From an uncultured Eubacteriales bacterium (lineage in GTDB: Bacteria; Bacillota; Clostridia; Christensenellales; UBA1242), in NCBI GenBank assembly GCA_900321185.1, contig ONVD01000055.1:1-51785 (forward strand): 51,785 nt of DNA, written 5' to 3'. Positions 23,021 through 26,152 of this stretch are shown piece by piece (within the stretch, counting starts at the first letter, position 1; each line of letters opens with the position of its first letter). The notes under the pieces were generated by a model. The model did no database searches and was not told where the DNA came from. It saw nothing but the letters and a program-made list of their open reading frames with translations. Made by a program: the position numbers and the translations under genes.

Positions 23021-23051
23021 CATCACATAGTTTATATTTCGTGAGGTGGCT

Positions 23052-24053
23052 ATGTCAAAGATTAAAATAGGTGTGGATATGGGGTCAACCAGTACCACAA
23101 TATATAGAGATGGTATGGGTATTATTTTGCATGAGCCAACTAAGGCGTTGTGTGAGATAAACGAACGTGGACATTTGAGTATAAAAGAGTATGGCAAGCG
23201 CGCAGAAAAATTGCAAGGTAGAGTGCCTACGCATTTTATGCTGGTAGACCCAGTAGTAGATGGGCAAATCAAAAATGTCGAAGTTGCCACCAAACTATTG
23301 CGTAAATATGTTCAAATGGTTACAACTGATGACCCAGATGCTAGGATAAGTGCTGTTTTTAGTGTGCCTTGCGGTCTTTCGCTAGAAAATAAAAAGCAAT
23401 ACCAGGTTGTGGCATATGGTGCGGGGATTAGTGATGTGTGGCTTGTCCCGACAGTGATTGCTAGTGCCTTGGGCGCTGGATGTGATTTAGTTAATCAGCT
23501 CAACACTTTTATTGTGGATATAGGTGGAGGGTGTACTGATATTGCGGTTATTGGTGAGTGTGGTATAATACATGGGTTGACATTGAATGTTGGTGCAGAC
23601 AAGATGAATAAGTCTATTGAGCGCTATACTAAACAAAAATTTGACTTAGTTATTGACCAGCGTACATCACAATTGTTAAAAGAAGAGATTGGTTCTTTGT
23701 TGCCAAACGATGTATCGAGTATGATAGTTAAGGGCGTTGCCTCAGATAATAGTATACAAGAAGTACTCGTAACAGCAGATGATGTGTACAAAGCAGTTGT
23801 GGAATATTACGAACTAGTTACCGAATCAGTTAACACCATTATCAATGCGTGTTCGCCTGAGGTCGTGGGGTATATCCACGAGGTCGGTATTGTTGTTTGT
23901 GGCAACGCTAGTAAGATTGTTGGATTGGACAGATTTATGACAAATTATCTAAACATTCGTGTAGCTGTAGTCGAAGGGAGTACGTCCGCACAAGGTCTTG
24001 GTATGTTACTGGGTGATAAAAAACTACTCAAGACAATTTTGGAAGAAAATTAA
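23052..24053 (+). CDS. mreB: MreB-like actin, divergent
   Basis: MreB filaments organise cell-wall synthesis in rod-shaped cells. The actin fold is seen in phosphate motif 1 (VDMGSTSTTIYRDGMGII), the VDPVVDGQIKN segment, the ASALGAG region and phosphate motif 2 (IVDIGGGCTDIAVIG). The C-terminal adenosine motif, usually G-G-G-A, reads VVCGNASKIVGLD, so nucleotide binding may differ. Length (333) is normal. ATG 23052 is used because the upstream GTG at 23046 is part of the GAGGTGG ribosome site. No mreC or mreD follows; a terminator does, then minD. Confidence 0.9.
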   Translation: MSKIKIGVDMGSTSTTIYRDGMGIILHEPTKALCEINERGHLSIKEYGKRAEKLQGRVPTHFMLVDPVVDGQIKNVEVATKLLRKYVQMVTTDDPDARISAVFSVPCGLSLENKKQYQVVAYGAGISDVWLVPTVIASALGAGCDLVNQLNTFIVDIGGGCTDIAVIGECGIIHGLTLNVGADKMNKSIERYTKQKFDLVIDQRTSQLLKEEIGSLLPNDVSSMIVKGVASDNSIQEVLVTADDVYKAVVEYYELVTESVNTIINACSPEVVGYIHEVGIVVCGNASKIVGLDRFMTNYLNIRVAVVEGSTSAQGLGMLLGDKKLLKTILEEN

Positions 24054-24149: not shown

Positions 24150-24914
24150 ATGGCAAGGAAAATAGTTTTAACTAGTGGTAAAGGCGGAGTTGGTAAGAGT
24201 ACAATTTGTCTTAGTCTTGGCAAGCAATTGGCCCAAAATAGAGCCAAAGTGGTAATGCTTGATGTTGATGTTGGACTAAATAATCTAGATATTGTGGCAG
24301 GTATCGAATCAGATGTATTGTATGATATTGTGGACGTATTAGAACATCGTGTACGTCTAAATCAAGCATTAGTGCAGGACAAAGAGTGTCTAGACTTGTT
24401 TTATTTGCCGTCTTGCCATACTTACAATGTTGGGCGAGTTAAACCAGACGACCTAAAAAATATTGTTTTAGAGCTTGAAGATTTTGATTACATATTGTTA
24501 GATTGTCCAGCAGGAATAGATTTTGGCTTTCATAAGGCTGTATTTTGTGCCGGTGAGGCTTTAATTGTCACTACACCACACATAACCGCAGTGCGAGATG
24601 CGGACAAGGTCGCTACATTACTTTGTCATTACAACCTAGATGGTGTAGGTTTGGTAGTCAATAGACTAGATGAGTATTTGGTATCAAGGCACAAAATGCT
24701 GTGCGCTGATGATATTGCCTCTGCTCTCAAACTTCCATTACTCGGACAAATCCCCGAAAGTCGAGATATTAATAGTATTGCTAGTATAAGTGGTAAGATA
24801 AATACAAGGGACGTAAAATTTAATAGTGCCATACAATCGCTTGCTAACAATGTGTTTTTAGGGCATTATACTTGCCAAAATCTAGCGCAACAACGAGGCA
24901 AACACTATGTCTAA
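24150..24914 (+). CDS. minD: Septum-site ATPase MinD without a recognisable membrane helix
   Basis: MinD is the membrane-cycling ATPase that places the division site. The deviant Walker A motif SGKGGVGKST has Lys11 and Lys16. VVMLDVDVGLNNLDIVAGIE, YILLDCPAGIDFG and TTPHITAVRDADKV match MinD rather than general ParA, and minE follows with an 8-bp overlap. The usual C-terminal amphipathic helix that anchors MinD (as in KKGFLARLFGG) is missing; the end reads FLGHYTCQNLAQQRGKHYV. No minC is present in the window. AAAGGAG precedes the ATG. Confidence 0.92.
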   Translation: MARKIVLTSGKGGVGKSTICLSLGKQLAQNRAKVVMLDVDVGLNNLDIVAGIESDVLYDIVDVLEHRVRLNQALVQDKECLDLFYLPSCHTYNVGRVKPDDLKNIVLELEDFDYILLDCPAGIDFGFHKAVFCAGEALIVTTPHITAVRDADKVATLLCHYNLDGVGLVVNRLDEYLVSRHKMLCADDIASALKLPLLGQIPESRDINSIASISGKINTRDVKFNSAIQSLANNVFLGHYTCQNLAQQRGKHYV

Positions 24915-25140
24915 AAAAGAAATAAAGAACAGATTGATGCAAGTCTTGATAAGCGAAAAACGTTTTGACTCGCAAAAAATAGACAGAGTGTTAGAGAATG
25001 ACTTGTACAAGGTTATTAAAAACTATATGGATGTCGACCGTGAGGATATTCGTACCAACTTAGTACTCGAAGATGATGGCTGTTATGTGCTAAGGTGCAA
25101 AGTGCGTGCTAAGCGAATAAAAATTTTTGGAGTGTTGTAA
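24907..25140 (+). CDS. minE: MinE-like cell division topological factor, short N-terminus
   Basis: MinE stimulates MinD ATPase. The 77-residue protein matches the MinD-contact helix and dimer domain: NRLMQVLISEKRFDSQKIDR, LYKVIKNYMDVDREDIRTNL and LEDDGCYVLRCKV. The N-terminal membrane-binding stretch of other MinE proteins (such as LLDFFLSRKK) is absent; the protein starts MSKKEIKNRL. It overlaps minD by 8 bp with GAGG upstream, so the start is secure. Confidence 0.85.
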   Translation: MSKKEIKNRLMQVLISEKRFDSQKIDRVLENDLYKVIKNYMDVDREDIRTNLVLEDDGCYVLRCKVRAKRIKIFGVL

Positions 25141-25150
25141 GGTGGTAAAA

Positions 25151-25297
25151 ATGAAATATGGCAATCTTTATACTTTATTATTAACTATTATACTTAGTTT
25201 TATTATTTTGTTTGCAAGTGATTTTTTAGGTGATTTAAATCCATTTAGAGTCGTTTCAAACGAAATTAGTCAAATTATTTATAATAGAGGTGATTAA
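25151..25297 (+). CDS. 48-residue single-pass membrane protein
   Basis: A short gene between minE and the M50 protease with GGTGG upstream. It reads MKYGNLYTLLLTIILSFIIL, then a short extracytoplasmic part (NPFRVVSNEISQIIYNRGD). One membrane helix spans about residues 5-23. Its stop abuts the next ATG, and the AGAGGTGA site of the protease lies in its last codons, so the two are coupled. It occupies the place of spoIVFA relative to spoIVFB in Bacillus, but is far smaller and has no visible homology. Confidence 0.75.
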   Translation: MKYGNLYTLLLTIILSFIILFASDFLGDLNPFRVVSNEISQIIYNRGD

Positions 25298-26152
25298 ATG
25301 AATTTTAATTTATCTTTTCACCCATTATTTATTATTTTGTGCTGTGCCTTTATTTATTTTGGTTATTTTGGTTTGCTTGTAAGTTACATTTTGTGTTTGT
25401 TGCTCCACGAATGTGCACATGCACTGGTCGCTAAAAGATTGGGGTATCAATTAAATAAAATCAAACTCATGCCTCATGGAGTGAGTATTAGTGGGAGCAA
25501 TGTTTATTTTAGTTACAAAGACGAGGTACGCATAGCACTAGCAGGACCATTGGCCAACTTTATGTTAGTGGTTTTGACTATGGCTTTTTGGTGGGCGTTG
25601 CCTGTTAGCTATAGTTTTACTTATGATTTTTATATTGCCAACTTAGTTATTGCTATTGTAAATTTGTTGCCTATTTATCCACTTGATGGCGGGAGAGTAC
25701 TGCTTGCGTTACTTAGTCAAAAATTTAGTAGGATGCGAGCGGTAACAATTGTAAGAGTAATTGGTGTAATATTATCATCATTGTTGATTGTTTTGTTTGT
25801 TATTACTACCTTTTTTGCGCCAAATTTTACTTTGCTGTTTTTTGGTGTGTTTTTGTTCGTTACCAGTCTAACAGATACAAGAAATATTCAATATTCGCGT
25901 GTAAACAATCTAGCGTACAAGATGTCACGTATAAACAAAGGTATCAGCGTGCGTAATATTGCTGTCAATCAAAATATCACTTTGTACAGACTTTTTTCAC
26001 AAATTTCACCTTTTAGCATTACAAATTTTACGGTACTAGATAACAATCTCAAAGTGGTTGGACACATTACCGAAAAAGAGTTAAATAGACTGGTAACTAT
26101 CTATCCAGCAGATGCTAAATTGACTGTTATTTTGCATCAAATGCTTGTCTAA
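25298..26152 (+). CDS. M50-family intramembrane metalloprotease, SpoIVFB-like
   Basis: A site-2-type protease cleaving within the membrane. The zinc motif HECAH is at 37-41 in a membrane helix, and LLPIYPLDGGRV with the third ligand Asp130 lies in another. Membrane helices cover residues ~10-200. Residues ~205-284 form a cytoplasmic part that may be a single CBS-like domain (NFTVLDNNLKVVGHITEKEL). SpoIVFB activates sigma-K in spore formers; without a known partner here the substrate is unknown. It is coupled to the 48-residue protein. Confidence 0.9.
   Translation: MNFNLSFHPLFIILCCAFIYFGYFGLLVSYILCLLLHECAHALVAKRLGYQLNKIKLMPHGVSISGSNVYFSYKDEVRIALAGPLANFMLVVLTMAFWWALPVSYSFTYDFYIANLVIAIVNLLPIYPLDGGRVLLALLSQKFSRMRAVTIVRVIGVILSSLLIVLFVITTFFAPNFTLLFFGVFLFVTSLTDTRNIQYSRVNNLAYKMSRINKGISVRNIAVNQNITLYRLFSQISPFSITNFTVLDNNLKVVGHITEKELNRLVTIYPADAKLTVILHQMLV

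Follow-up and report, generated by a model that had tools for sequence, protein, structure and literature searches.

A MinD-MinE pair without recognisable membrane-binding segments in a bacterial family lacking detectable MinC

MinD and MinE together constitute a two-protein pattern former by which many bacteria find the middle of the cell, and their usual cargo is MinC. MinD is normally fixed to the cell membrane by its C-terminal tail, and textbook accounts of MinDE patterning treat this membrane helix as indispensable. An initial annotation of the DNA described here assumed that pattern formation requires both proteins to bind membrane. For MinE the assumption does not hold, because waves still arise, and MinD is stimulated more, when MinE has been deprived of the entire membrane sequence (PMC5473585), and dimerised MinE(13-31), again without the membrane sequence, suffices for waves (PMC6922632). 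For MinD it stands, since Bacillus subtilis MinD that is defective in membrane binding has no detectable ATPase activity (PMC13246001). MinDE can also act without MinC, patterning FtsA-anchored FtsZ (PMC9262947) as well as other, unrelated membrane proteins (PMC6158289). Plants have lost MinC, and MCD1 recruits their plastid MinD to the membrane (PMC8646090).

The window analysed here is the whole 51,785-nucleotide stretch of contig ONVD01000055.1, from a gut bacterium with an assembly of 906 kb (0.9 Mb) that is estimated to be 96.7% complete (genome G000). All features described are encoded on the + strand. The minD gene (24150..24914) encodes a deviant-Walker-A ATPase of 254 residues, which scores 231 bits against the NCBIfam model TIGR01968 (minD_bact; cut-off 212.9), with the match stopping at residue 216. 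Alignment to E. coli MinD shows that the deviant Walker A motif, the signature lysines and residues D38, D40, D120, D152 and D154 are intact, as are the nucleotide-binding and dimer residues in general. In an AlphaFold2 model the ATPase core is confident; residues 242-254 have pLDDT<50, and the tail is predicted to be disordered.

Judged from an alignment, the tails of 146 relatives and helix scores, residues 238-254 (24861..24911) are the site at which relatives carry the amphipathic membrane-targeting helix. The final residues of the G000 protein, NVFLGHYTCQNLAQQRGKHYV, contain no amphipathic basic/hydrophobic window. Each MinD was given a score for a basic amphipathic helix in its 24 C-terminal residues, values below 0.5 being taken as absence of the helix. 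G000 MinD scores 0, against 0.62 for E. coli MinD and medians of 0.70 for 144 MinDs of the order and 0.64 for 80 MinDs of GTDB genomes across bacteria, so that helix prediction bears out the annotated absence of a C-terminal helix. Scores below 0.5 occur in none of the 80 GTDB MinDs and in 5 of the 144 from the order; MinD rarely loses its own anchor.

The MinD of the sister species G200, 66% identical to that of G000, is also truncated, ending ...NVFYADYRLNQQIKY, and its minD stop abuts minE, which makes an assembly error in G000 unlikely. The G200 helix score of 0.65 arises only because a core helix falls inside the scored stretch, and the residues beyond it are without helix. Neither of the remaining two frames across the 3' end of the G000 minD encodes an amphipathic helix; with these frames read and G200 in agreement, we rejected a frameshift or a mis-called gene end. 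In G164, the third species of the genus, the C-terminus of MinD is degenerate. Parsimony on the MinD tree (145 rows, SH-aLRT support), which rests on our coding of nine rows as lost, places three helix losses, in the genus of G000, in G212 and in a group of five genomes (f3). Within its family, the loss appears to be particular to the genus, added to an older, family-wide loss of MinC. The MinD tails of the f3 group (G034, G057, G078, G113 and G128; loci L173-L177) are Arg/Trp-rich in place of the amphipathic helix (KRRWRLR, RRRRRRWL, RRWWRR, KRRFGRRR); they represent an independent departure and could bind lipid or nucleic acid.

The minE gene (24907..25140) directly follows minD, its ATG overlapping the minD stop and the two genes sharing 8 bases. 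The 77-residue product scores 37.0 bits against Pfam PF03776 (cut-off 25), and NCBIfam MinE models match it, all below their own cut-offs. Its structural model (mean pLDDT 83) gives weak matches to the alpha/beta dimerisation fold of MinE (1ev0, Z 4.0; 6u6r, Z 3.7) amid unrelated rows of similar Z, and a Foldseek search with the model returned no significant match. As the initial annotation had noted, the protein starts at the MinD-contact helix without an N-terminal membrane sequence: the contact arginine is preceded by 8 residues where E. coli MinE has 20. The reading frame is closed by a stop lying 7 codons ahead of the ATG, so that no upstream anchor is recoverable by an alternative start; we therefore rejected a mis-called start, which would yield only 7 extra residues. 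The short start is ordinary for the family of G000, since most MinC-less genomes have 5 to 13 residues before the arginine and no WFF- or FKFF-type stretch (a few rows of this comparison are mis-anchored, among them G200, which has 8 by eye). In the MinC-bearing genomes with an extracted MinE (n=12), by comparison, 14 to 23 residues precede the arginine, usually with a WFF- or FKFF-type stretch, three having only MARRR/MARFRR. At the other end of the protein, the MinE C-termini of close relatives share a conserved basic/hydrophobic motif, R-x-K-x-x-G-V/I-L (25099-25137 of the window in G000).

The C-terminal domain of MinC (PF03775) has no match in the G000 genome at E<=10. The N-terminal model PF05209 has none either, which is a weak test, as only 2 of 14 controls exceed its cut-off. 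The genome search thus confirms the reported absence of MinC in the 0.9-Mb assembly, and the absence extends to the whole family: none of 98 family genomes and 14 of 151 order genomes have a MinC over cut-off, and in the same 151 MinD exceeds its cut-off in 109 and MinE in 55 (78 at E<=0.01). Because MinC is missing across the family, a copy hidden on a contig absent from the G000 assembly is unlikely. In the MinD tree, a single clade (SH-aLRT 99) unites 120 MinDs whose genomes have no detected MinC, and it is separate from the MinC-bearing genomes as well as from two further MinC-less groups with canonical MinDs; the grouping of G000 with G200 has an SH-aLRT of 99. These patterns indicate that the absence of MinC and the short MinE are old traits common to the whole family, not specific to the G000 locus.

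MinC is also undetected in families f13 (G012, G040, G100) and f24 (G049, G071, G108, G149), yet their MinDs belong to the canonical clade. As the f13 MinE in addition retains its N-terminal stretch, MinC was probably lost more than once in the order. The MinD substitution R44N was considered as an indicator that MinC had been lost, and was dropped: f13 and f24 group with R44-type MinDs, and the residue follows the tree, not MinC.

The gene pair is maintained. minE adjoins minD for all 79 of the 79 family MinDs, minE has a dN of 0.21 and a dS of 1.23 between G000 and G200, and the minD differences between the two genomes are distributed 84/43/139 by codon position over 242 codons. Both genes are under purifying selection. 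Together with the intact catalytic residues and the constant adjacency of minE, this argues against a frameshift and against a dead gene. One further feature of MinD has changed. The clade motif NRxRxD, in which the second arginine and the aspartate are 98% and 97% conserved, is lost in both species; in G000 the segment reads NRLDEY (residues 171-176; 24660..24677), with D/Y at these two positions, and G200 has K/K. The sequences thus point to upkeep of the ATPase-activator pair alongside change in two outer features of MinD, the helix and the NRxRxD loop.

The initial annotation suggested that the pair may have a cargo other than MinC, and this is the natural reading, because MinDE is retained in most family members without MinC. 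FtsZ is present in G000 (TIGR00065, 421.7 bits), with a weak actin-family (FtsA-like) match just upstream of it. Since MinE needs no membrane sequence and MinDE patterns without MinC, a MinC-independent pattern in the family members with a MinD helix would be plausible without new biology. The genus of G000 needs another route, as B. subtilis MinD without membrane binding loses its ATPase activity. We tentatively favour, at somewhat less than an even chance, the reading that the locus encodes a genuine MinD-MinE pair from an old lineage working independently of MinC, and that this pair acts as a switch whose MinD is delivered to its site by a putative partner. MinD would still dimerise on ATP, MinE, free of a restraining membrane segment, would still trigger hydrolysis, and the cycling dimer would position something other than MinC. 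As MinD cannot insert a helix of its own, a partner bound to the membrane or belonging to the cytoskeleton would most likely take it to its site, in the way that MCD1 recruits plastid MinD. We further speculate that the pair may be a natural oscillator or switch in which neither protein has a membrane segment, another cargo replaces MinC, and the pattern forms on a protein scaffold of partner-tethered MinD instead of lipid, a proposal that we regard as possible but doubtful.

The adjacency of minE, the intact signature residues, selection, the MinC-less clade, the presence of FtsZ and the published precedents all count for the partner-tethered switch. Against it count that no tether was found, that the B. 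subtilis ATPase is lost without membrane binding (PMC13246001), and that G000 and G200 have lost the NRxRxD loop and kept fewer clade-conserved columns than is typical, which would suit decay as well. The best syntenic candidate for the partner, by position only, is the product of the gene directly upstream of minD (23046..24053), a divergent MreB-family protein (PF06723, 196.8 bits). It is the best MreB-family match in the genome, yet far below the NCBIfam MreB cut-offs, and it lies upstream of minD in many relatives. However, G212, where the truncation arose independently, has no MreB-like match ahead of minD, and mreB-min synteny is ancestral in Firmicutes, which also weakens this candidate.

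The main rival is decay, which we consider unlikely though serious: MinDE would be a leftover in a reduced genome (0.9 Mb), where the loss of MinC weakened selection on membrane patterning and MinD is losing functional surfaces. The disappearance of both the helix and the NRxRxD loop fits decay, as does the fraction of clade-conserved columns kept, 86% in G000 and 82% in G200 against a clade median of 96%, and strong MinD matches are missing from several family members. Decay is harder to reconcile with the comparison of G000 and G200, two species ~34% apart in protein sequence in which the ATPase core is still full length and minE is retained, with clear purifying selection; their end branches (0.26 and 0.23) are also comparable in length to those of relatives that have the anchor (0.23-0.29).

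A conventional pattern could also persist through cryptic direct contact of MinD or the MinDE complex with lipid, for instance by the MinE C-terminus RAKRIKIFGVL. This basic, hydrophobic end is conserved in G200 and close relatives, and MinE dimers could add avidity; but relatives whose MinD keeps its helix have a similar MinE C-terminus, and the MinD tail of G000 is predicted to be disordered. We consider cryptic binding improbable.

Many family members share the gene order Ppx/GppA-like, MreB-like, MinD, MinE, (membrane protein), M50 protease. In G000 the membrane-protein slot holds a gene for a 48-residue single-span protein (25151..25297), conserved in five genomes (G000, G200, G164, G191 and G214; relatives' loci L062, L063, L071 and L129), and is followed by the gene of an M50 (SpoIVFB-like) intramembrane protease (25298..26152; PF02163, 60 bits), a conserved operon neighbour by synteny. 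In other relatives the slot between minE and the protease holds a ~200-residue, one-span protein that by eye resembles SpoIVFA and fits a role beside the M50 protease. The 48-residue protein as a remnant of the SpoIVFA-like protein was not supported, the profile comparison being non-significant (hhalign probability 2.7%) and the shared position the only link.

The initial annotation had proposed this 48-residue protein as a possible substitute anchor for MinD. The adjacency of its gene speaks for this role, as does its conservation across the genus, where each of the three species has it. The protein does not track helix loss, however, since G191 and G214, with MinDs that retain a short C-terminal hydrophobic/basic stretch, have it as well, and it is absent from G212, whose MinD lost the helix independently. 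Its positive-inside charge pattern predicts only about 6 cytosolic residues, and its gene sits in the position of a likely partner gene for the M50 protease. Its role as a replacement anchor is thus disfavoured and very unlikely. A ParA-like MinD whose matrix is the nucleoid and not the membrane, which the lost helix and the use of DNA by ParA-family relatives could suggest, is the least credible reading, because the MinD core, with a net charge of -7, is more acidic than the median (-5) and shows no shift towards basic charge that would hint at nucleoid binding.

Whatever positions MinD, a large MinC-less family that keeps MinDE allows the in vitro claim that other proteins can be positioned by MinDE to be tested in nature, and a genus without the MinD helix, with its ATPase-activator pair under selection, does the same for the question whether the membrane can be replaced as the reaction surface. 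Compared with E. coli MinCDE, the G000 locus shares the MinD signature residues, the MinE contact helix and the adjacency of minD and minE, and the FtsZ target is present; it differs in lacking MinC, the MinE membrane sequence and the C-terminal helix of MinD. A MinE that starts near the contact helix, natural in G000, has been engineered by deletion of the membrane-targeting sequence (PMC5473585; PDB 6u6q, delta10-ngMinE), and the deleted MinE of PMC5473585 was tested only alongside membrane-binding MinD. In B. subtilis, MinCD-MinJ-DivIVA exemplifies a Gram-positive MinD placed through partner proteins (PMC13246001), which for G000 is a proposal; unlike G000, B. subtilis has retained MinC and the MinD helix, and it lacks MinE. 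The chloroplast system of MinD1/MinE1, ARC3 and MCD1 (PMC8646090) likewise kept MinD and MinE after the loss of MinC. There, MinD is carried to the membrane by another protein, as we propose for G000 MinD; the chloroplast partners ARC3 and MCD1 are plant proteins, and their counterpart in G000 is putative.
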